Shown piece by piece: positions 3,513-15,955 of a stretch of DNA of 64,000 nucleotides. The notes below the pieces were generated by a model that was not told where the DNA came from, did not search any database, and saw only the letters and a program-made list of their open reading frames with translations. This stretch comes from a virus: IMG/VR virus record IMGVR_UViG_3300035670_000067, positions 1-64,000 of that record, one strand, 5' to 3'. Position numbers and translations under genes: made by a program. How positions within the stretch are numbered: the stretch's first letter is position 1; the number at the start of each line of letters is the position of its first letter.

Positions 3513-3972
3513 TTGGTTCCATTTCTATAATGTGAAGCAGAGTGTTAAAATCCCAATGAGTATGATTTTCAAGTGTCCCATCCTTATGCCTTCGAATATA
3601 CCATGGTCTAAGCTCTTCTATCTTTACTCTTGCATATCTTGAATCATTTAAGCATCTAATCGGCAATACGATCGCGATCTTGGGAAATGCGCGAATAAAA
3701 ACTATGCCCAGCCCTACACCGCCAGCCAAATGCGCAGCTTCTAATCCCTGTTTTTGGTGATCCTTAAAGATGCCAACATTAAAAGTCCCACTATTCAACA
3801 ATTTGAATTCAACAGCCACAAATGCTGAGCGCCAAACAAAGTAAGAATCATATGGCTTTAACTTCGTATTCCTGGCATCCATCAGTGTGACTACATGAAT
3901 ATTCTGCTTTGTTTCAGCAGACCACTGTCTCAGCTCATTTCTGAACTGTGATGCTTTCTGACGCTCAGACAT
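3499..3972 (-). CDS. RecU-like Holliday-junction resolvase / PD-(D/E)xK nuclease
   Basis: Protein of 157 aa with a PD-(D/E)xK nuclease pattern: 'KPYDSYFVW' supplies the Asp, 'FVAVEFKLLNSG' gives the E-x-K, and 'FKDHQKQGLEAA' matches the conserved His-Gln of the RecU/penicillin-binding-protein-related factor A family. The following 'AGGVGLGIVFIRAF' is a typical next beta-strand. RecU enzymes cut four-way junctions symmetrically. That fits the surrounding Rad50/Mre11 and RecA genes and a recombination-dependent replication style. Length is a little below RecU (~200 aa). The start overlaps the Rad50 C-half by eight bases. Confidence 0.7.
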   Translation of the reverse strand: MSERQKASQFRNELRQWSAETKQNIHVVTLMDARNTKLKPYDSYFVWRSAFVAVEFKLLNSGTFNVGIFKDHQKQGLEAAHLAGGVGLGIVFIRAFPKIAIVLPIRCLNDSRYARVKIEELRPWYIRRHKDGTLENHTHWDFNTLLHIIEMEPNVRS

Positions 3973-4576
3973 AAGACTTTTTCCTTAGATCGTACACGCT
4001 GCCTATCGTTTGCGCAAATTCAGAAGATTGTGTAACAACCATTAGTTGGATCCCGAATCTCTCGCAAACCTTTTTAATGAAATTGCCAGCAATGATCTGC
4101 CTGTCTGGCTCTAATCCACCAAATGGTTCATCTAAGAATATAACCTTATTGATTGATTTATCCACCTTACAAATTACAATCCGCATTAAAACGCCTATAA
4201 TCTCAGCCACCGAACGCCCCTTGTTCATACGGATATCTAGCCAGCCTTCTCCCCTGTTGGCATTCACCATGAAATCACAAGAAGTGTTGTCACCATGCCT
4301 ACCTATCTCAAACTTGAATCTATACTTGTCATCAAACATATCAATTAAACCAGCAGAGATCACACCTTCAAACATTTCGATAATCTTATCATATCGTTTG
4401 CTGATAAGATACTCTATAACTAACCTTGCACGTTTACGCTTTTTGATTTCAGCTAACGCTTCTTTCCTCTGCGTCTTTGCTTCTGCAATTTTCTTCTTTA
4501 TCTGTTCGCGTATTTTCTTCGCAGCGTATAGATCGTTGAAAACTGCATCTATTTTACTTTTTTCTAAACTGAGCAC
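3965..4576 (-). CDS. C-terminal ATPase half of a split Rad50/SbcC
   Basis: Protein of 203 aa from a GTG start. The sequence GGAGGTTATTTGTG places a strong ribosome site ahead of that GTG, which I prefer to an upstream ATG at 4630 lying inside the preceding coiled-coil gene. A short coiled coil is followed by a 'GRSVAEIIGVLMRI' signature helix, Walker B 'VIFLDEPFGGLEP' and a switch-like 'MVVTQSSEFAQT'. These are the C-terminal elements of ABC/SMC-type repair ATPases. There is no Walker A; that is in the gene at 5779-6864. It should pair with that half to form the Rad50 head working with the Mre11 nuclease at 4821-5804. Confidence 0.78.
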   Translation of the reverse strand: MLSLEKSKIDAVFNDLYAAKKIREQIKKKIAEAKTQRKEALAEIKKRKRARLVIEYLISKRYDKIIEMFEGVISAGLIDMFDDKYRFKFEIGRHGDNTSCDFMVNANRGEGWLDIRMNKGRSVAEIIGVLMRIVICKVDKSINKVIFLDEPFGGLEPDRQIIAGNFIKKVCERFGIQLMVVTQSSEFAQTIGSVYDLRKKSYV

Positions 4577-4811
4577 AAATAACCTCCAATTCTTCCAATT
4601 CCTTCGATATGCGCTTTTCTTCTTCTTCAAGCTTAACCTTCAGAGCATCTAACTCTTTACGCATCTGCTTTGTGGAACAAACTTCTTTGTTGAAAAACTT
4701 CAGCAACTCTTTTTGAGCAAGATCACGTTTATGCTTCAGCATATCGTGCTCGACCTGTAGCTTGTTTAACTCTTGACGCATTGCTTCTACTTTCTTAACG
4801 ATATTGATCAT
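4554..4811 (-). CDS. Coiled-coil protein, probable middle piece of split Rad50
   Basis: Protein of 85 aa, almost entirely heptad-like and Lys/Glu/Leu-rich ('RQELNKLQVEHDMLKHKRD'), with no catalytic motif. It lies directly before the Rad50 C-terminal ATPase half and overlaps it by 23 bases. I infer it is the returning arm of the Rad50 coiled coil as a separate polypeptide, or that it is joined to the ATPase half by ribosomal frameshifting in the overlap. The reading frame downstream is open across the junction, so both are possible. Confidence 0.6.
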   Translation of the reverse strand: MINIVKKVEAMRQELNKLQVEHDMLKHKRDLAQKELLKFFNKEVCSTKQMRKELDALKVKLEEEEKRISKELEELEVICAQFRKK

Positions 4812-4820
4812 CGCACTCTC

Positions 4821-5804
4821 CTACATTACCTGTTCTAATTTCTCGAGACAATATTGTTTGACTTCTTCTGATACCTTAGCTGTCAACAATGCTGGCGGAT
4901 TCAATAAGATCAATTTTAGATTTTCCACAAAATTTGCACCAAGCGTATTTGATTCGGACAAAGATTCCATCGCTTCTATGAAGTTTTGTTTCTGTAACTT
5001 TTCAATAGCTCTATCAACTGAAGACAGATCAAATACTTCAGAAGCCTTTTTAGTTTTCAATTTTATTTGTTCGATATCGATATCAAATCCATTTATCCTA
5101 ATTATGGCTATCCCCGGCCCAACACCCTCTACAGAACTTTTATAATCAACTCTTCCTATAGAGCCGGGATTTACGAAATATGTTTTTCTATTCAAAGATT
5201 CTACGGCTATTGGCTTGTGGAATCCTAAATGATTATGTCCGCACAAAACCAGATCTACATTAGTCGAAACGTCTCTGGGGTCTACCGTTACCCTAGCCCC
5301 ATCAATGATTTTGGTCGGCGCATCGCAGAACATCGCGTGAGTCAATAAAACTGTCGGCTTCTTTTCATCAATGATTTTAGAACACCAAGTATCACTAGCA
5401 ACTAAATCTCTAGAATAATCTATTCCAGTTATCACACACGACTTTGTAATAACGGTATCTTTAGAAACTCTGCGAAACCACTTGTATCTCTCGAGTAACC
5501 CGAAATTCGTTTTATGAACATAATCTGCATTCCCACCCTGTACGTCATGATTGCCATACACAAACAGAATGTTTAATTCTGGATAGCTTTCCACAATTGA
5601 CACAAATCTTACCATCAACTCATCGTCAGGTTTGTACGAATGTGAAAGATCACCAGTAACCGCCAGATAGTGTATTTTTCTTTTTCTGCAAATTTCAACC
5701 GACTGTGTCAGAAGACTGAACACATCTTCGTTATAGTTGTCTATCCTATTCTCTGGCGGACGATTGGCGATATGTAAATCAGTTATGTGAGCTATCTGCA
5801 ACAT
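4821..5804 (-). CDS. Mre11/SbcD-type nuclease
   Basis: Protein of 327 aa with the full calcineurin-like metallophosphoesterase set in order: 'HITDLHIANRP', 'VTGDLSHSY', 'FVYGNHDVQGG', 'LLTHAMFCD' and 'LVLCGHNHLGFH'. These residues bind the two metal ions of Mre11/SbcD exonucleases, which process DNA ends with Rad50/SbcC. T4 gp47 and T5 D12 are phage relatives. A C-terminal ~100-residue helical region would contact Rad50. I chose the ATG ('MLQIAHITD'), though a GTG four codons upstream is possible. The gene sits between the two halves of Rad50, an unusual order. Confidence 0.85.
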   Translation of the reverse strand: MLQIAHITDLHIANRPPENRIDNYNEDVFSLLTQSVEICRKRKIHYLAVTGDLSHSYKPDDELMVRFVSIVESYPELNILFVYGNHDVQGGNADYVHKTNFGLLERYKWFRRVSKDTVITKSCVITGIDYSRDLVASDTWCSKIIDEKKPTVLLTHAMFCDAPTKIIDGARVTVDPRDVSTNVDLVLCGHNHLGFHKPIAVESLNRKTYFVNPGSIGRVDYKSSVEGVGPGIAIIRINGFDIDIEQIKLKTKKASEVFDLSSVDRAIEKLQKQNFIEAMESLSESNTLGANFVENLKLILLNPPALLTAKVSEEVKQYCLEKLEQVM

Positions 5805-6864
5805 ATAAATTTCCACATTCTTTGCATTTGATTAATTGATACTTAGACAACTGCTCTTGTGTCTTTGCCTTACTTTTCTCTATGTCTTCCATTCTATCTT
5901 CGATATCAACTAGCATATGGCACGTTTCTAACATATTGTTAATGTCAGCCCCATTCTTTAGGAATGCGTTTAGAGCCGTTTCCAGCCCCTCCAACCGTTG
6001 CGCCACACCGGCAACCGCCGCATATTTATTGAATGCCGCGCTGGCCTCTGTAAGGGCATCCAATAGTCTTCTTTGGGTACACGCATTAGCGGCGGCGGCA
6101 AGGCAACTGCCTAACTGTTCAATGAGTGTAGCCAGTCTATTGATTTCTGTACTACTGCTCTCCAACAATTCTAGATCAGCTATAGCTTTTTCGTATTGTG
6201 CAACTGAAGCAGCTAGTGAATCGAATTGTCCACGCAACTCTTGACATCTAACGAATTGTTCTTCTACTCCATTATATGTCTTAAGTTCTACACGATGTGA
6301 AGACAAAGAAGCTTCTATAGAATGTAATCCGTTCTGTTTTTCGCAAATCTCGCGGCTAATTGTTTTCTTTATCTTTTCAGCAATGTCTATGCCTGTAAGA
6401 TAATTCAGCAGGCTACCCCTTGTCGGCGCACTTTCATAAACTAGAAATGGTAATGGATTATCAACACCGGCGATGACTGGACACAATTCAACATTACCCA
6501 GTTTGATAAACATAGTCCCAAGTATCTGCTTTATCGGCGCTGGGACTTCTGACCCGAATCCTGTAAACTTTTTGTCATTCAGTATATAACTATTTTCGTG
6601 CTTACCGCGCACTCTAACGATTATGATGTCTTCATTCAACCCTTCGAATATCAATTTAACAGACGCATCAAGTATCTCCCCATTTTCCTTCCTACGCATC
6701 CATTCTCCGCGTGGCGAATTCGTAGCTGCCCAGTGATACGCTCTGACTAATGCACTTTTTCCGCTATCATTTGCGCCTATTAGTGCGAACGCATTGTCTC
6801 TAATCTCTACATCCAAATGCTTATGACATTGGAAGTTTTTCAGGATTATCCGTTTTAGGCGCAT
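5779..6864 (-). CDS. N-terminal half of a split Rad50/SbcC, ending at a zinc-hook-like CxxC
   Basis: Protein of 361 aa. It starts 'MRLKRIILKNFQCHKHLDVE' and carries Walker A 'IGANDSGKSALV' at ~29-40, the standard N-terminal lobe of Rad50/SbcC. From ~165 to 340 it is coiled coil. It stops just after 'KCKECGNLYV' (Cys347, Cys350), a CxxC at the position of the Rad50 zinc hook. It has no signature motif or Walker B; these are in the gene at 3965-4576. This looks like a Rad50 divided at the hook so the two ATPase lobes are separate chains. Its end overlaps the Mre11 gene by 26 bases. Confidence 0.8.
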   Translation of the reverse strand: MRLKRIILKNFQCHKHLDVEIRDNAFALIGANDSGKSALVRAYHWAATNSPRGEWMRRKENGEILDASVKLIFEGLNEDIIIVRVRGKHENSYILNDKKFTGFGSEVPAPIKQILGTMFIKLGNVELCPVIAGVDNPLPFLVYESAPTRGSLLNYLTGIDIAEKIKKTISREICEKQNGLHSIEASLSSHRVELKTYNGVEEQFVRCQELRGQFDSLAASVAQYEKAIADLELLESSSTEINRLATLIEQLGSCLAAAANACTQRRLLDALTEASAAFNKYAAVAGVAQRLEGLETALNAFLKNGADINNMLETCHMLVDIEDRMEDIEKSKAKTQEQLSKYQLIKCKECGNLYVADSSHN

Positions 6865-9223: not shown

Positions 9224-9242
9224 GTTCACCTCTTATGTAATG

Positions 9243-9270
9243 AAAGAGGGCAGGCTAAATGCCTGCCCTC
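9243..9270 (-). terminator. Terminator hairpin upstream of recA
   Basis: Perfect 10-bp stem GAGGGCAGGC / GCCTGCCCTC with a five-base loop, followed on the minus strand by TTTC. It lies after the gene ending at 9296 and before recA, so it should end or reduce transcription from the single-strand-binding-like gene upstream. The T run is short. Confidence 0.7.
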
Positions 9271-9295
9271 CTCTCGGGGTTGGATGGGTTGAGAG

Positions 9296-9811
9296 CTAAA
9301 GCTTTTTGACTTTCTTAACTTTCTTGACCTTCTTTGCCTCTGCGTCTTCTCCTGCTCCAGAACGACATTTGGACCCGTAAGCTGCGATCTTAGTGATCGA
9401 ATCTCTTGTGGCGACAACACCCTTACGATCAGGGCGTTCTTTCAATTCGATAAAAACATCAAACTTCTCGCCATAATACGCAGTCAGGTCTATCTCGTCT
9501 CCGATATCAATCGGATTGCCACCATTCATTACGGTAACGTAAGACATCAGCTTACTGGTGGGGGTCAGTTCAAGACCGACAAACGCCTTGGCGATATAGC
9601 CCTTAGCTGATTCACCGCCAGTGAATTTGCCACCAGTCAGCTTGAATTCAAGAGCCGCCATCGGCCCGAACTTAGCTTCTATGATCTTAGCGGCCTGGAA
9701 CACAGAAGGATACCATTCATGCGATTCGGGTAACTGACGCGGACGCTCCTTGATAACAACGATACGCTTGAGATTGACTTCGCCGTTATCCTGTTTCTTT
9801 TCCTTTTCCAT
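9296..9811 (-). CDS. Hypothetical basic-tailed protein next to RecA (possible DNA-binding protein)
   Basis: Protein of 171 aa. The beta-rich core has segments such as 'ALEFKLTGGKFTGGESAKGY' and 'KFDVFIELKERPDRKG'. It ends in a Lys-Val repeat tail ('AKKVKKVKKVKKL'). The core could be an OB-like fold and the tail could bind nucleic acid, so a single-stranded DNA-binding role beside RecA is plausible, but I see no defining motif. It is followed by a terminator, consistent with abundant product. Confidence 0.6.
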   Translation of the reverse strand: MEKEKKQDNGEVNLKRIVVIKERPRQLPESHEWYPSVFQAAKIIEAKFGPMAALEFKLTGGKFTGGESAKGYIAKAFVGLELTPTSKLMSYVTVMNGGNPIDIGDEIDLTAYYGEKFDVFIELKERPDRKGVVATRDSITKIAAYGSKCRSGAGEDAEAKKVKKVKKVKKL

Positions 9812-9812
9812 A

Positions 9813-10427
9813 TCACACCTTCAGTTTGATTCTTGCTTTTTCTTGATTTACAACTTCAATCCCAGCCGACTTCCCTTGTACGATATTGCGCAACGTTGGC
9901 AACAAAGCACCTTTCGTAATAACAGCCGCCCGGAAAACATTATTAAGCAGTCTGTATTGAAATTCTAGGTCGGATATTTGTTTTTGCCATTCACGTATCT
10001 TTTCCTTATATTTCTTTGCCATGTAACCGCGAACAGTATTTTCAGTTACGCTTTCTCTTGGCTTGGCGACATTATCCTGCAGATGACATTTGCAAGTGTA
10101 GTACAATTCTTCTTGCCATAACTGATATCTGTTTTTCAATTCTTCCAGCTTGTGTCTTGCGATTTCACACACTAGCGAGACGCTTGCTTCTAGCGCAGCT
10201 TGTTCATCCACATGAACTGCAAGCTCTGGTAACGGTATGTCGCCACCAACTCTGAGTTGCTCAAAACTGAAACCAAACTCTTTCTTTATTTGCTCTGCCT
10301 TATCAGCCGGGATAACAAACACATAACGATCACGTTCCCTGCTTACTTTCACACCAGCGTGTTTCAGCAGGGAACGTGCGATGATCTGTTTATCCTGGCT
10401 GTTTATATCGTCACTCTGACTTGCCAT
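9813..10427 (-). CDS. UvsY-like recombination mediator (tentative)
   Basis: Protein of 204 aa. The C-terminal half is a long helical region: 'TVRGYMAKKYKEKIREWQKQ' followed by 'DLEFQYRLLNNVFRAAVITK' and 'GALLPTLRNIV'. The pattern of an early conserved segment, a coiled helix and a terminal A...K...L..L stretch resembles UvsY-type recombinase loaders of many phages, which place RecA/UvsX on coated single strands. Its position one gene away from RecA fits. I chose the second ATG ('MASQSDD') at 10427; a TTG at 10448 would lengthen it by seven residues. The match is from pattern only. Confidence 0.5.
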   Translation of the reverse strand: MASQSDDINSQDKQIIARSLLKHAGVKVSRERDRYVFVIPADKAEQIKKEFGFSFEQLRVGGDIPLPELAVHVDEQAALEASVSLVCEIARHKLEELKNRYQLWQEELYYTCKCHLQDNVAKPRESVTENTVRGYMAKKYKEKIREWQKQISDLEFQYRLLNNVFRAAVITKGALLPTLRNIVQGKSAGIEVVNQEKARIKLKV

Positions 10428-11271
10428 CGTCGTGTTCGAGAGTAACAATCATCTGACCCTTCTTGGCGTTCGCGATCGGAACACCTTTCAAGGTCTTCTT
10501 AATCCCGCGCTCTTTGCACAAAGCGCGCAACTCGTCATCGGTCATCTCAGAATAATCCTTCTCTTCCTCTTCCTCTTCCCCTTCCTCTTCCTCTTCCTCT
10601 TCCTCTTCCTCTTCCTCTTCCTCTTCCTCTTCCTCTTCCTCTTCGGCTTCCTCTTCCTCTTCGGCTTCCTCTTCCTCTTCCTCTTCGGCTTCCTCTTCCT
10701 CTTCGGCTTCCTCTTCCTCTTCGGCTTCCTCTTCCTCTTCTTCCTCGTCAGCCTCTTCGGCTTCCTCTTCCTCTTCTTCCTCATCAGCCTCTTCGGCTTC
10801 CTCTTCCTCTTCGGCTTCCTCTTCCTCTTCTTCCTCGTCAGCCTCTTCGGCTTCCTCTTCCTCTTCTTCTTCCTCGTCAGCCTCTTCGGCTTCCTCTTCC
10901 TCTTCTTCTTCCTCGTCAGCCTCTTCGGCTTCCTCTTCCTCTTCTTCCTCGTCAGCCTCTTCGGCTTCCTCTTCCTCTTCTTCCTCGTCAGCCTCTTCGG
11001 CTTCCTCTTCCTCTTCTTCCTCGTCAGCCTCTTCGGCTTCCTCGTCCGTATCAACCTTAATGTCTTCTTCCTTACCGATTAACGCACCCTTCTTAGCCAA
11101 ACTGTTCCAAATTTCCTTAGCTTCATCAGCAAGAGCTTCAACACCAGTCTTCAGATCATCGCCAACAAATCTGGCGAGATGAATGGACATCACACCAGAC
11201 GTACCGGTCTTGAAATCTCTACCATACGCGACCGTGATTTCGTTCTTCTTTTCTACTTCGACCTTAGCCAT
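10411..11271 (-). CDS. Protein with long Glu-rich repeat and C-terminal SAP/Rho-N-like domain
   Basis: Protein of 286 aa. Residues 1-75 form a folded N-domain ('MAKVEVEKKNEITVAYGRDF'). Residues ~76-240 are almost only Glu with Ala/Asp in repeated units such as 'EEAEEADEEEEEE'. The last ~45 residues, 'YSEMTDDELRALCKERGI' through 'KKGQMIVTLEHDD', match the helix-extended-helix pattern of SAP or Rho N-terminal domains that bind nucleic acid. The acidic block could mimic DNA or buffer basic partners. It is encoded by a DNA repeat of about 33-36 bases (10561-11046). Function unknown; it sits between DnaE and the UvsY-like gene. Confidence 0.7.
   Translation of the reverse strand: MAKVEVEKKNEITVAYGRDFKTGTSGVMSIHLARFVGDDLKTGVEALADEAKEIWNSLAKKGALIGKEEDIKVDTDEEAEEADEEEEEEEAEEADEEEEEEEAEEADEEEEEEEAEEADEEEEEEEEAEEADEEEEEEEEAEEADEEEEEEEAEEEEEAEEADEEEEEEEAEEADEEEEEEEAEEEEEAEEEEEAEEEEEEEAEEEEEAEEEEEEEEEEEEEEEEEEEEEGEEEEEEKDYSEMTDDELRALCKERGIKKTLKGVPIANAKKGQMIVTLEHDDGKSE
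10561..11046 (-). repeat. In-frame tandem repeat coding a Glu-rich tract
   Basis: About 485 bases built from CTCTTC/TTCCTC hexamers and a longer unit of about 33-36 bases containing TCGTCAGCCTCTTCGGC. It encodes Glu/Ala/Asp repeats on the minus strand. All units keep frame. Copy number is probably unstable between isolates and hard to assemble from short reads. Confidence 0.85.
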
Positions 11272-12388
11272 TTTCTGCTTCCTTGTATTTTGTTAGTTGG
11301 GAAAGTTCAGTTTTTCTGCTATCGAAGAGCAGCTTACCTCTATTCTTCTTTAAAGAAGCGATAAAACACTTACCCTTCTGCAGATGTTCAGAAACGTCGG
11401 ACCAGTCACTTGCAAAAACAGTTATTGAGCTTTCTGACTGGCCATCGGTAATGTCTACGAACCCCATTTCGTTTCCATTTTTATCTGTGTGTTTTTTCAC
11501 TTTGATGACCTCAAAGGCCACCTTTATCATTTCTCCTTCTTCTTTTTGTTCTATCAATGCGAGAGTGTTAGCTTTTTCTGCCGCTATAATATCAACAAAC
11601 TGTTTCAGCTTACTTGGCTTGAACGAATAACCATAAGCTATGTCCTGAGCATATTGTTTGTTGATTCTTTTACCAGTACACGCTTCCTCTGAATGGCTTA
11701 TGGCGGCACTGCCACAATACGGACACACTATACCATCTTCTTGTAACTTTTTCACTTGTACATTTACAGGATAACGATATTTACATTCGTAACAGAAAAT
11801 TTGACGACATACTTTCTTATCACCACGCATTTCCAATAACTCATCATATATGACTTCCATCTTGCCAAATTTTCTAAATGTATTGGCAAGAACTATATTA
11901 GTCAATGTCGCAATCGTCAACGCTCTATTTGCTGTTCTCTGCACGAAATCTTGGAATGATAAAAACTTTCCGTTTTTACGTTCTATTTCTATCACTTCTA
12001 TGGCTTTATCACCAACTCGCTTGATTGCAGTCCATGGCGAAACCAAACATCCCTTACCAACAACGAAATCTCTTGTGCTCTTGTTGACTTCTGGTGGGAC
12101 TATCTTTATAGCCATTCTCCTAGCTTCGGAAAGAACTGAAATAAACTTTTTGTCGTCGTCAGTGCTATATGTCAGCACCGCATTTATGTACTCAGCAGGA
12201 TAGTGATATTTCAAATAAGCTGACATATAAGCTATGAACGCATAAGCGCAGGCGTGGGAATTATGAGTAACAGTGTTCTGTACAACATAATTTCTACGCC
12301 GTTGAGTCATTTCTAAATCATAAACGCTTCTAATTCCCAATTTTTTGACTGAAACAATGCGCGAATTTTTGACTTGAACGTTATCCAT
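11264..12388 (-). CDS. dnaE: Split-intein C half (Int-C) fused to the C-terminal part of DnaE
   Basis: Protein of 374 aa. Residues 1-43 are an intein C-terminal segment ending 'NYVVQNTVTHN', with Ser44 as the first extein residue. What follows, 'SHACAYAFIAYMSAYLKYHY', is the conserved DnaE segment just after 'YTFNR' in the upstream gene. The rest holds a zinc-ribbon-like insertion ('CRQIFCYECKYRYP', 'GIVCPYCGSAA') and a C-terminal OB-type domain ('VAFEVIKVKKHTDKNG'). After trans-splicing with the 13325-15955 product it should give a DnaE-type polymerase of ~1112 aa. It begins inside the end of the homing endonuclease gene (76-base overlap). Confidence 0.9.
   Translation of the reverse strand: MDNVQVKNSRIVSVKKLGIRSVYDLEMTQRRRNYVVQNTVTHNSHACAYAFIAYMSAYLKYHYPAEYINAVLTYSTDDDKKFISVLSEARRMAIKIVPPEVNKSTRDFVVGKGCLVSPWTAIKRVGDKAIEVIEIERKNGKFLSFQDFVQRTANRALTIATLTNIVLANTFRKFGKMEVIYDELLEMRGDKKVCRQIFCYECKYRYPVNVQVKKLQEDGIVCPYCGSAAISHSEEACTGKRINKQYAQDIAYGYSFKPSKLKQFVDIIAAEKANTLALIEQKEEGEMIKVAFEVIKVKKHTDKNGNEMGFVDITDGQSESSITVFASDWSDVSEHLQKGKCFIASLKKNRGKLLFDSRKTELSQLTKYKEAENG
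12260..12388 (-). other. Int-C segment of the DnaE split intein (43 residues)
   Basis: Residues 1-43 of the DnaE C-half gene. It contains the block F/G pattern 'SVYDLEMTQRRRNYVV', an aromatic/Val strand, and a terminal 'THN' before Ser+1. The terminal Asn cyclises and the preceding His assists; Ser+1 takes the branched intermediate. Size and ending resemble split inteins such as gp41-1 rather than cyanobacterial DnaE. Confidence 0.88.
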
Positions 12389-13287
12389 ATTGATTTCTCA
12401 CATTTGATTTGATGTTCCCACATCACCACCATACCATCTACTTTCTTACTTCTATTTATAAATTTCGCCTTTGATTTATCTCTTATCAAATTCTTCTGAA
12501 CAGCAATCGGTATACTTTTCTTATGTCCAAAAAATCTTGGATGCCAATGCCAATAAATACCATGACATTCTACAACAATTTTCTTGTCGCCTATAAATAT
12601 TAAGAAATCATATAAATATCTTCCCAATTTCTTTTGATGAACAAATTTAACATTATGTCGCTTTAGAAATTTTTTGAAAATTAATTCTATAGAAGAACTT
12701 TTTCCGTTATTCGAATCGCGCTTAAGCCTTTCTATTGTCACATCACGCATAAAATTCTTGAGTCTCTGCGAATGACGTTTGCCCAACATCCCATGCACTT
12801 TGCGTTTAGAAGCCGAAATCGACATCTTTTTGCGGGTTTCTTCAGTGGGATATCTGAACATATTCTTCAGACTAACAGACAACATAGATTTAGAAGTTTC
12901 TTTTGTAAGACCTTTATTCCAAGCTGTTTTACCTAATCGCGGATTATTCTGCTCCATCCACCTAGCTTGTCTTTCTATAGACGCATTAGATTCTCTTGTA
13001 AGCCCCTTATTCCACGCCTTATGCGATGAACACTTTTTACCATCAGCACAAAATTTATTCAGCACTATCCCACTAGAATACAGACATACCTTCAAAGGCT
13101 TCCCGCATCCACATTTAGATACGTTCAAAAATTTAACGATATACTGCTCGACATTTAATTTGTGTTCCTTCATTAGATGATAATTGAACATCCACGCCTT
13201 ATATTTTCCGTTCTTTTTTCCTTCATAATACAAGTATTCTGGCTTATTACAATACGGACATTTATTGGGGACTTCAGCGATTTTCAT
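12313..13287 (-). CDS. Homing endonuclease, Vsr-like (EDxHD) with NUMOD3-like repeats, lying between the split-intein halves
   Basis: Protein of 324 aa. N-terminal zinc-finger-like segment 'CPYCNKPEYLYYEG' with later His residues, and a second cluster 'CGCGKPLKVC'. Then come repeated NUMOD3-like motifs 'HKAWNKGLTRES', 'GKTAWNKGLTKETSK' and 'GMLGKRHSQRLKNF', which bind DNA in homing enzymes. The C-terminal catalytic domain resembles the very-short-patch repair fold: 'SSIELIFKKFLKRHNVKF', 'GRYLYDFLIF', 'VVECHGIYWHWH', a 'RDKSKAKF' Asp, and 'VVMWEHQI'. This matches the EDxHD family described in fractured genes with split inteins (Dassa et al. 2009). It should cut an intein-free dnaE allele and spread the element. 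Confidence 0.88.
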   Translation of the reverse strand: MKIAEVPNKCPYCNKPEYLYYEGKKNGKYKAWMFNYHLMKEHKLNVEQYIVKFLNVSKCGCGKPLKVCLYSSGIVLNKFCADGKKCSSHKAWNKGLTRESNASIERQARWMEQNNPRLGKTAWNKGLTKETSKSMLSVSLKNMFRYPTEETRKKMSISASKRKVHGMLGKRHSQRLKNFMRDVTIERLKRDSNNGKSSSIELIFKKFLKRHNVKFVHQKKLGRYLYDFLIFIGDKKIVVECHGIYWHWHPRFFGHKKSIPIAVQKNLIRDKSKAKFINRSKKVDGMVVMWEHQIKCEKSIWITFKSKIRALFQSKNWELEAFMI

Positions 13288-13324
13288 AAATCACCATATG
13301 GTAAAGCATGAGAGACATGCCTAA

Positions 13325-15955
13325 TCATATCGTTCTAACTATTCCATATGAAAAATCACTTTCGATCAACTGCCTCAAAGTCCTATATTCTCCGTCATCG
13401 CATAACAGCCTATGATCTAAAGTGCAAGATAATTTTTCTCCATCATCGAAACATATCTCATAACATTCCATTTCACCATTATCATACACTTTTTGTACTG
13501 GGTCAAAATGAATTCCATCTTCATCGTGAGTAGCGACTAAATCACCAACATTGATATCTCTAATTTTCTTTTCACCTTCTATGGTCAGCACCAACTGATT
13601 TTCTTCAACACATCTGTTGAACGTGTATTTACTGAACGCTTCAATAAATCCCCAAATCTCTTCAGCAAGCGCTTGGTCAATATCAGATTTTTCTTTACAG
13701 CCCTTGTAGAATTTTTCCTTCCAAACAGCAAACTTTCGCGGGTCTTTTAGCTTGATGCCCTTACGGAAATTGTCAGATTCAGATGGTGTAAATCCTGCTA
13801 AGACAACCGCCAACTTAGACGCTTGCTCTTGGAATAACAACACACCATAACTCTTTCCAAGAACGCTTTCCATCTTAGGATGCAGATATTGATAATATTG
13901 GCCATGCTTTCTGTTGACATATTCAGTGTGCATGTTCTTTTCAAGAACACCAGTACGATACAACGATATGATAGCAATTATATCTTCTATGGAATCCGGC
14001 TTCATATCTTGAGACAGTTTTATCATGCCGTCAGAAGTGCCAAGCTGGAACAATCCAACATTCAGACCCTTACCAATCATTTCATAAACATCTTGGTCTT
14101 CAAGATGTTCCAACATAAATTCGCACAACCCATCGAAGTCAGAAAACGAAACCTTGTGCCTTTCCTTTATAAGCGCAACAGTCCTTGCAATGATATCTAA
14201 TGTATTCTGTCCAAGAAAGTCTAATTTCAAAATACCAAGGTCTTCCAAGGCGTACATGTCCCATTCAGTAACTTTTACGTCTTTCTTTTTGTTCTTACCG
14301 CCAGTTAATGAATACGCAATCGGACACCATTCATGCACCGGAGTTCTAGTGACCACTACACCACTTGCATGAACGCCGGTTTGCCTGTTTACGCCAAGCA
14401 GGTTAACAGCAGTGTTTTCAATATCTTCATTTTCTTCTAGGAATTCAGCGACCTGTGGATAACCAGTTACTATTTCATCCCAATTCTTTTTATAATCTTC
14501 GTACGAAGAATTGGGTGGAAGCGCCGTATCACCATCATCTATTTTAGAAGTGATACTATTGACCAGTCCAAAATCCATATCAAATACTTTAGCTGCATCT
14601 TTAATCGCGCTCTTAGGCTTCCACTTGGTGTAATTACAGATGTGAGCAACACATTCGTTGCCATACTTTTCAATCACATAATCAAGAACCCTTGAGCGTA
14701 ATTCCTTGCTAAAATCCATGTCTATATCTGGGAGTGTAAGACGCTCTTTGGTCAAAAATCTTTCAAATGGACAATCAAACCTAATTGGATCTACCCATGT
14801 AATATTCATCAGGAAGGCGATCAATGAACCGTTTACACTTCCGCGAGCATTGTATGGAATATCATTTTTTCTACAAAAATTCGCAATATCGTAAACGACA
14901 AGAAAATAATTACTGAATTTCAGAGAAGTGATAACTCTATATTCTTCTTTATAGCGCAGTCTATATTCTTTCTCCTTCATGAGTTTACCCCATGACGGAT
15001 GCTTCTTGCAAATCTCATCAAGGTCTGTGTCTGGCGTTTCTGATACAATCGGTAATGGTGAACCTTCCGGTAACAGATTAAACGCTTCTATTCTATTTGC
15101 CAAACAAACAGTCTCATCTATCGCTTGATTCAGCATTTCATCGCTGATATAATCGTGCCACAAGTCTCTGGCTGAACGTAATTCGTTCACATCTTTCAAC
15201 CAAAGCTGTTTCGTGGCGTAAGTGTGATTTTCTGCATCATTTACACTTTCCCGCCATTTAACACAGATGACGGCATCATGTATATTGCTCTGTTCTTTTG
15301 ATATGTAGTGTCCATCCATAGTAACTATGAACGGCAATCCGTATAGCCTAGCAAGGCGTAACACATATTTGTTCAAACGAACCTGTTCCGGCATATCGTT
15401 TAACTGAATTTCTGCATATATCCTATCTTTGAACACAGTCATCAAATTCTTAAGTCTGCGCTTAATCAACCTCTTTTTGATTTTATGCTTTGCAGACAAC
15501 ATATTCTTCTTCAGATAATCAAATCCGACTAGACCATTTTCACAGCCAGTTGTGATTAGCAAGCCTTCATTGTGTTCTATCAAATCTTTGATTGAAACTC
15601 TTGGCTTCTTTAAGAAACCGTTTTCCCAAGCGTTGCGCATGAGAATCTTAAGATTGCTCCACCCGACAGCGTTCATTGCCAAAATAATCATGTGTCCATA
15701 ATTATATGGAATATTTGATTGTTCTGTATCGTAATCATCAACCCAATAAATCTCGCATCCGATAATCGGCTTTATTCCGGCCGCTTTGCAAGATTTCCAA
15801 AGATTATAGATACCTCCGAGTGTACCGTGATCGGTGACAGTTACAGCGGTTTGTTCTCTAGTCTTGGCTTCTGCCACCAGATCTTCCACTCTGGTAACAG
15901 CGTCCAAAACAGAAAAATGCGTATGACGGTGGTGGTCAATGAACATTGTTTGCAT
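13325..15955 (-). CDS. dnaE: N-terminal part of DNA polymerase III alpha (DnaE) fused to split-intein N half
   Basis: Protein of 876 aa. It starts with a PHP domain ('MFIDHHRHTHFSVLDAVTRV', 'VTVTDHGTLGG'). The polymerase core follows: 'ARGSVNGSLIAFLMN' and catalytic 'LPDIDMDFSKELR' at ~405-415, then 'LDFLGQNTLDII'. At residue 781 the conserved DnaE sequence stops at 'FSKYTFNR', and Cys782 begins an Int-N of 95 residues running to the stop. It is the leading polymerase gene of the phage and is inactive until spliced in trans to the 11264-12388 product. Start could be the first ATG or the fourth codon, both near AAGG. Confidence 0.93.
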   Translation of the reverse strand: MQTMFIDHHRHTHFSVLDAVTRVEDLVAEAKTREQTAVTVTDHGTLGGIYNLWKSCKAAGIKPIIGCEIYWVDDYDTEQSNIPYNYGHMIILAMNAVGWSNLKILMRNAWENGFLKKPRVSIKDLIEHNEGLLITTGCENGLVGFDYLKKNMLSAKHKIKKRLIKRRLKNLMTVFKDRIYAEIQLNDMPEQVRLNKYVLRLARLYGLPFIVTMDGHYISKEQSNIHDAVICVKWRESVNDAENHTYATKQLWLKDVNELRSARDLWHDYISDEMLNQAIDETVCLANRIEAFNLLPEGSPLPIVSETPDTDLDEICKKHPSWGKLMKEKEYRLRYKEEYRVITSLKFSNYFLVVYDIANFCRKNDIPYNARGSVNGSLIAFLMNITWVDPIRFDCPFERFLTKERLTLPDIDMDFSKELRSRVLDYVIEKYGNECVAHICNYTKWKPKSAIKDAAKVFDMDFGLVNSITSKIDDGDTALPPNSSYEDYKKNWDEIVTGYPQVAEFLEENEDIENTAVNLLGVNRQTGVHASGVVVTRTPVHEWCPIAYSLTGGKNKKKDVKVTEWDMYALEDLGILKLDFLGQNTLDIIARTVALIKERHKVSFSDFDGLCEFMLEHLEDQDVYEMIGKGLNVGLFQLGTSDGMIKLSQDMKPDSIEDIIAIISLYRTGVLEKNMHTEYVNRKHGQYYQYLHPKMESVLGKSYGVLLFQEQASKLAVVLAGFTPSESDNFRKGIKLKDPRKFAVWKEKFYKGCKEKSDIDQALAEEIWGFIEAFSKYTFNRCVEENQLVLTIEGEKKIRDINVGDLVATHDEDGIHFDPVQKVYDNGEMECYEICFDDGEKLSCTLDHRLLCDDGEYRTLRQLIESDFSYGIVRTI
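13328..13612 (-). other. Int-N segment of the DnaE split intein (95 residues)
   Basis: Residues 782-876 of the N-half gene. Block A is 'CVEENQLVLTIEGEKKI', followed by 'INVGDLVATHDEDG'. Block B contains 'LSCTLDHRLL', giving the T-x-x-H pattern (Thr, Asp, His) needed for the first acyl shift. No endonuclease domain is fused. It ends in the gene's stop codon, so splicing must occur in trans with Int-C at 12260-12388. Confidence 0.9.

Follow-up and report, generated by a model that had tools for sequence, protein, structure and literature searches.

A phage Mre11-Rad50 locus in which Rad50 is probably encoded as two separate chains

The window analysed here (bases 1-64000 of the 110,384-base IMG/VR virus record IMGVR_UViG_3300035670_000067) belongs to a tailed phage, as marked by its major head, portal and large terminase genes. 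On its minus strand, four open frames transcribed in the order N-half, Mre11, a protein of 85 amino acids (aa) and C-half form an Mre11-Rad50 (SbcCD) set. We consider it probable, judging from motifs, profiles and gene neighbourhoods, that this locus encodes a DNA-end processing complex whose Rad50 is permanently made of two chains. By sequence, the N-half comprises Walker A, Q-loop, base helix, helical arm and a CxxC zinc hook at its free end; Walker B and the signature region are on the C-half, which also has a base helix. Comparison with other phages supports the split Rad50 as the design of a large family of mostly uncultured phages. A sequence-only reading of the window had proposed this four-gene set, with Mre11 lying between the ATPase halves. 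All four frames were confirmed as open on the minus strand, and the order was borne out both here and in relatives. Feature coordinates are collected in Table 1.

Two genes carry complementary parts of a Rad50 ATPase

The N-half contains a Pfam AAA_23 domain (44.5 bits, cut-off 27) and is matched by phrog_16465 at 2e-23. Rad50 structures were the first PDB matches of a profile built from 23 N-halves (5f3w, 3e-15; 3aux, 8e-15), and the head of its AlphaFold2 (AF2) model resembles SMC and Rad50 heads in Foldseek comparisons (predicted local distance difference test score, pLDDT, 76; predicted template modelling score, pTM, 0.43). Both Walker A and the Q-loop expected of the N-terminal lobe in Mre11-Rad50 (SbcCD) are present, Q134 of the Q-loop being nearly invariant among the 23 sequences. 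The chain ends with KCKECGNLYVADSSHN followed by the stop, CKEC being located 11 residues ahead of it; the zinc hook expected of SbcCD is thus found, though placed C-terminally. That an N-terminal chain should end at its hook, as had been proposed, holds across the family: CxxC is terminal in 140 of 141 distinct complete N-halves, with its first Cys a median of 13 residues (range 6-36) from the C-terminus, and in most of them the stop falls within about ten residues of the hook. In some N-halves only two to four residues follow the second Cys, so that, at least in these, a second chain would have to supply the remaining zinc ligands. The sole complete N-half seen without a terminal CxxC is gp155 of Microbacterium phage Magritte (L069:1339-2391), annotated as hypothetical.

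The C-half likely starts at GTG 4576, behind GGAGG (4587-4583). The alternative start TTG 4630 was set aside, GTG 4576 being favoured by the GGAGG six bases upstream and by the length of relatives (203 aa here, compared to a median of 215 aa). This protein is matched by phrog_15167 at 8e-12, and a profile of 25 C-halves again retrieved Rad50 first from the PDB, with 3qkr_B (2e-13) and 1ii8_B (6e-13) followed by 1us8_B and 1f2t_B (to 3e-12). Its AF2 model (pLDDT 89.6, pTM 0.71) shows a helix at residues 2-81 and has Rad50 as best Foldseek matches. The D-E pair of Walker B, expected of the C-terminal lobe in SbcCD, is present, and CxxC is absent from 114 distinct C-halves.

The signature is less canonical. 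Its consensus in 115 C-halves is [A/D]-[R/F/Y/S]-G-G-G; compared with LSGGE, the Gly-Gly is kept across the family while Ser and Glu are not, and the window reads KGRS. At the serine site (position 119 of the window's C-half), Ser occurs in 15/115 sequences, with Arg, Phe and Tyr common. This replacement suggests that ATP sensing across the heads is altered in the C-half family. The signature of T4 Rad50, SEGE, is also off LSGGE. The histidine expected in the H-loop is found in 113/115 C-halves and is replaced by Gln in the window. Of the signature helix and Walker B that had been assigned to a separate gene, Walker B stands as described, and the putative signature region has the degenerate form KGRS.

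Since the ATPase motifs are complementary and each is invariant in its own chain, the two products appear to be halves of one Rad50, and we infer an ABC head built from the N- and C-half chains. One could instead suppose that a RecF/AAA_23-like N-half and an ABC-like C-half work separately and form no single ATPase. PHROGs indeed files them as distinct families, exonuclease and ATPase, and the degenerate signature motif would fit such a view. Nevertheless, each half is devoid of the motifs of the other, both are nearest to Rad50, the two are found together and alongside Mre11, and Mre11 is fused to the N-half in one locus (L134, see below), which makes separate functions improbable.

The split set is shared by many phages

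Single-sequence searches of viral contigs gave no match, and relatives were gathered there by searching for the C-half, the N-half and Mre11. Among 147 distinct N-half loci, 107 had a C-half in reach; 105 of these also had Mre11 and 86 the small protein. The commonest orders in the 147 loci were N-Mre11-small protein-C, that of the window (51 loci), and N-small protein-C-Mre11 (32 loci). Instead of the single chain of N-lobe, coil out, hook, coil back and C-lobe, two ORFs (open reading frames) were found in every case, and no frame holding both Rad50 domains occurred among the ORFs of related loci. PF13476 had a single match in 12 of 14 records (61 to 619 kb), the top match per record being an N-half-sized ORF or, in the record of L134, a fusion. 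Outside viruses, the C-half was found at just four loci in bacterial or archaeal genomes (three Bacilli and one Anaerolineae metagenome-assembled genome), so that it is essentially a phage or prophage protein.

The proposed search of other phages recovered the same order, including in a cultured one, Microcystis phage Mvi-JY20, whose gene order is identical to that of the window. Tunturiibacter phage Tunturi_5 and the 485-kb phage LR745208 have the same gene set. In Bacillus phage vB_BboS-125 (L004), the N-half is gp32, ending in ICPLCEQTHKGGGC, the small protein gp34 and the C-half gp35, and an Mre11 gene unannotated in the record lies at 9238-10218. An AP2-domain (homing-type) gene is located between its N-half and small protein (L004:7398-7970). 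In Magritte, the genes of the set are dispersed. Annotations in vB_BboS-125 (gp32, gp34, gp35) and Mvi-JY20 read exonuclease, hypothetical and ATPase, or hypothetical throughout, and PHROGs places the pieces in the unlinked families phrog_16465 (exonuclease), phrog_15167 (ATPase) and phrog_18563 (unknown).

These loci bear on whether the two genes are the debris of a single Rad50 gene, produced by sequencing or assembly error or by decay. The 85-aa and C-half frames do overlap, and a single wrong base, for instance in the A6 run that closes the 85-aa frame, would fuse these two. Mre11 would however still lie between N-half and C-half, the same separate genes with invariant motifs recur in more than 100 distinct loci, cultured phages among them, and the N- and C-half genes of Magritte are far apart. 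We therefore give error or decay a negligible probability. Overlaps of about 25 bases are seen at two junctions, N-half/Mre11 and 85-aa/C-half, in keeping with tightly packed phage genes. A second full Rad50, also named beforehand as a finding that would undo the proposal, did not appear: PF13476 and the N-half and C-half profiles gave one match each in the 110-kb record, which is possibly incomplete.

Phage genes fractured with split inteins are known, and the halves might be rejoined by trans-splicing inteins or programmed frameshifting into an ordinary Rad50. DnaE of this virus is itself divided by a split intein. Reading by eye, however, no intein sequence was found at the N-half end or the C-half start, where the hook residues are native, and most N-halves stop no more than about ten residues past the hook. 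In addition, Mre11 lies between the halves, gene order varies among phages, and the joined pieces would give an arm without matched out and back strands. Rejoining is, on this evidence, very improbable.

Mre11 and the 85-aa companion

The expected Mre11 partner with phosphoesterase motifs is present: the protein matches Metallophos at 7e-12, and its active-site residues D8, H10, D51, H85, H155, H189 and H191 (numbered from 5801) are invariant in 17 sequences. In one relative (L037:3305-5401), a 698-aa Mre11 is interrupted immediately ahead of its GHWH active-site motif by an intein that has a LAGLIDADG-like domain. Genes for a PD-(D/E)XK/Cas4-like nuclease, the small protein and a sliding clamp often lie between Mre11 and C-half (L003, L017, L028, L031, L032, L037 and others).

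A profile of 97 small proteins, built without that of the window, matches the latter along its length at 1.2e-12 (next window ORF, 0.32); its members had first been gathered with a profile that included the window's protein, a mild circularity. By this conservation, the 85-aa protein is taken as a member of the Mre11-Rad50 set and not a bystander. In L134 (7062-10047), a single ORF of 771 aa combines Mre11, N-half, the hook CPLC and the small protein, in that order; next after it, the C-half is a separate, overlapping ORF. This fusion links the small protein with the complex, at a position behind the hook. It is the only real one among apparent small-protein fusions: for those in L006, L163, L188, L202, L228 and others, what lies upstream is an extended frame without recognisable domain. 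The small protein is probably a remnant of, or a stand-in for, the piece that follows the hook.

The arm varies on the N-half alone

N-halves have a conserved turn (Y/F-x-G-L/V) that lies 156 +/- 4 residues from Walker A; in the AF2 model of the window's N-half, a helix at 159-196 is followed by a turn. Beyond it, the arm from turn to hook varies from 113 to 309 residues, while the C-half start is nearly constant. Arm length and C-half length are uncorrelated (r = -0.11, 13 pairs), and the return coil in the C-half is only about 50 residues at any N-half arm length. The return arm was thus lost or replaced, not merely cut. The earlier claim of a split at the hook is therefore correct for the N-chain, which ends there, but the cut is not clean, the C-half beginning only about 50 residues from the head.

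Walker-A-to-hook distances cluster around 266, 312, 358, 405/421 and 467, with a best period of 51.5 (R 0.51 versus a null 95% of 0.22). Within the arms, the placement of hydrophobic residues has an autocorrelation peak at lag 47. These regularities are no more than suggestive of an arm built up from helical units that all belong to the N-half, each a single helix or a hairpin, on which the direction of the hook would depend.

A model for a two-chain Rad50

In the preferred two-chain reading, the N- and C-half would come together at the ABC head and along a short antiparallel base coil of about 40-50 residues per side. Two such heads would sandwich ATP and act with two Mre11 subunits. The distal arm would be a helical structure of the N-half only, possibly of ~47-aa units, and with the arm on the N-half alone a long C-half return strand would be unneeded. 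Two terminal hooks would share one zinc, joining two arms. By analogy with T4 gp46/gp47, the complex may act on DNA ends, trimming and opening them in support of recombination-dependent replication.

Several observations weigh against this reading. The LSGGE serine is unconserved in the family, which would argue against a standard ATPase cycle, and in the window KGRS together with the H-loop Gln may make the ATPase weak or altered. The N-half model is weak at its pTM of 0.43, leaving the predicted arm uncertain, and the length clustering may come in part from shared ancestry. The Magritte N-half has lost its CxxC. Finally, the related loci were collected starting from split members, which could leave close relatives with an intact Rad50 under-represented.

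The small protein could also be the missing return strand of the same complex, pairing with the distal arm and so re-creating the usual two-stranded Rad50 arm as far as the hook. It is conserved near the C-half and fused behind the hook in L134, and in the window its 85 aa, added to the ~50 aa of coil in the C-half, come close to the arm length. Small proteins of ~75-96 aa are however set against arms of 113-309 residues, one copy being too short for most; their profile has no clear match in seven intact Rad50 proteins, return arm included, and their sequence suggests a hairpin. We regard this arrangement as possible but rather unlikely. A comparably tentative reading takes the proteins as a separate SMC-like lineage, in which the hook arm would support itself as a rod of ~47-aa helical units, all on the N-half, the hook would be mechanically uncoupled from the C-lobe, the head would open by parting of its chains and the small protein would serve as a latch.

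Origin of the split and comparison with known systems

In Mre11 trees (31 split, 7 intact) and in Rad50-head trees (26 split, 7 intact), the split set falls on one side of a branch, with support of 100/99 in each case. This agreement makes a single ancient split event likely. The nearest sampled relative is the intact Rad50 of Achromobacter phage JWF, which the head tree places, on a long branch, as sister to the split set (98/93). It belongs to a gp43/gp44 pair, in which Rad50 is one 670-aa chain with CPAC at 326.

The set resembles SbcCD, T4 gp46/gp47 and SPO1 gp21.9/gp21.3 in its ABC head motifs, CPxCG-type hook, Mre11 partner and site among replication-recombination genes. In contrast, Rad50 of T4 and SPO1 is one chain with a long return arm and a hook in mid-sequence (T4, C288 of 560; SPO1, C324 of 637), as is the hook of intact E. 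coli Rad50, while the phage described here has two chains, a terminal hook, an arm on the N-half only and an extra small protein. The contrast first drawn with the single-chain Rad50 of T4 thus holds, and extends to SPO1 and a Staphylococcus phage. The Pyrococcus furiosus Rad50 head (1f2t, 1f2u, 1ii8, 3qkr) is likewise of two chains, and its C-chains top the matches of the C-half profile; that split is however man-made, co-expressed for crystallography without the full arm or hook. Mimivirus R555-type proteins, a viral rearrangement of the same complex, fuse Mre11 to Rad50 (PMC3175470, where the word 'split' does not occur), the opposite change; L134 has both fusion and split. A jumbo-phage survey describes SbcCD as near universal, and splits go unremarked in the passages found (PMC7824862). 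A search of openly licensed papers yielded no account of a split Rad50.

How signals and tension pass from hook to head is a standing question for Rad50, usually probed by cutting or shortening the coil. Here one strand would have been lost naturally, with hook, heads and Mre11 kept across a large phage family that includes records above 600 kb, and with subunits that are small and separately expressed the question could be put to direct test. The labels exonuclease, ATPase or hypothetical, now given to many phage genes, could be replaced by an annotation as parts of one complex.

Features of the locus and of the rest of the window

Table 1. Positions of the split Rad50 set and its motifs in the window
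Feature	Coordinates	Strand	Basis
Rad50 N-half, 361 aa: predicted ABC ATPase lobe I, base helix, helical arm, terminal zinc hook	5779..6864	-	AAA_23, phrog_16465, profile vs PDB, AF2/Foldseek
Walker A GANDSGKS, residues 30-37	6754..6777	-	G30, G35, K36 invariant in 23/23 N-halves
Zinc-hook motif CKEC, residues 347-350	5815..5826	-	C347, C350 invariant in 23/23
Mre11/SbcD nuclease, 327 aa from ATG 5804	4821..5804	-	Metallophos 7e-12, active-site residues
85-aa conserved helical companion protein	4554..4811	-	Family profile 1.2e-12; L134 fusion
GGAGG ribosome-binding site, six bases before GTG 4576	4583..4587	-	Read in sequence
Rad50 C-half, 203 aa from GTG: predicted N-terminal helix of ~80 residues, signature region, Walker B, H-loop region	3965..4576	-	phrog_15167, profile vs PDB, AF2/Foldseek
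ABC signature region NKGRS, residues 118-122	4211..4225	-	Column counts, 115 C-halves
Walker B VIFLDE, residues 145-150	4127..4144	-	D149 and E150 in 115/115 C-halves
H-loop position TQ, residues 182-183	4028..4033	-	Column counts, 115 C-halves

A RecU-like gene and an HNH gene come after the C-half. DnaE, a second split gene of this virus, is divided by a different route than Rad50 (window 11264-15955, minus strand). Its N-part (13325-15955) ends in an intein N-half (CVEENQLVLTIEGEKKI...), and its C-part (11264-12388, minus strand) starts with the intein C-half (...VVQNTVTHN, then SHACAYAF); a 324-aa endonuclease-like ORF with HNH / DUF559 matches lies between them. A 286-aa ORF at 10411-11271 (minus strand) contains a long A/D/E repeat run (EEEAEEADEEEE...).

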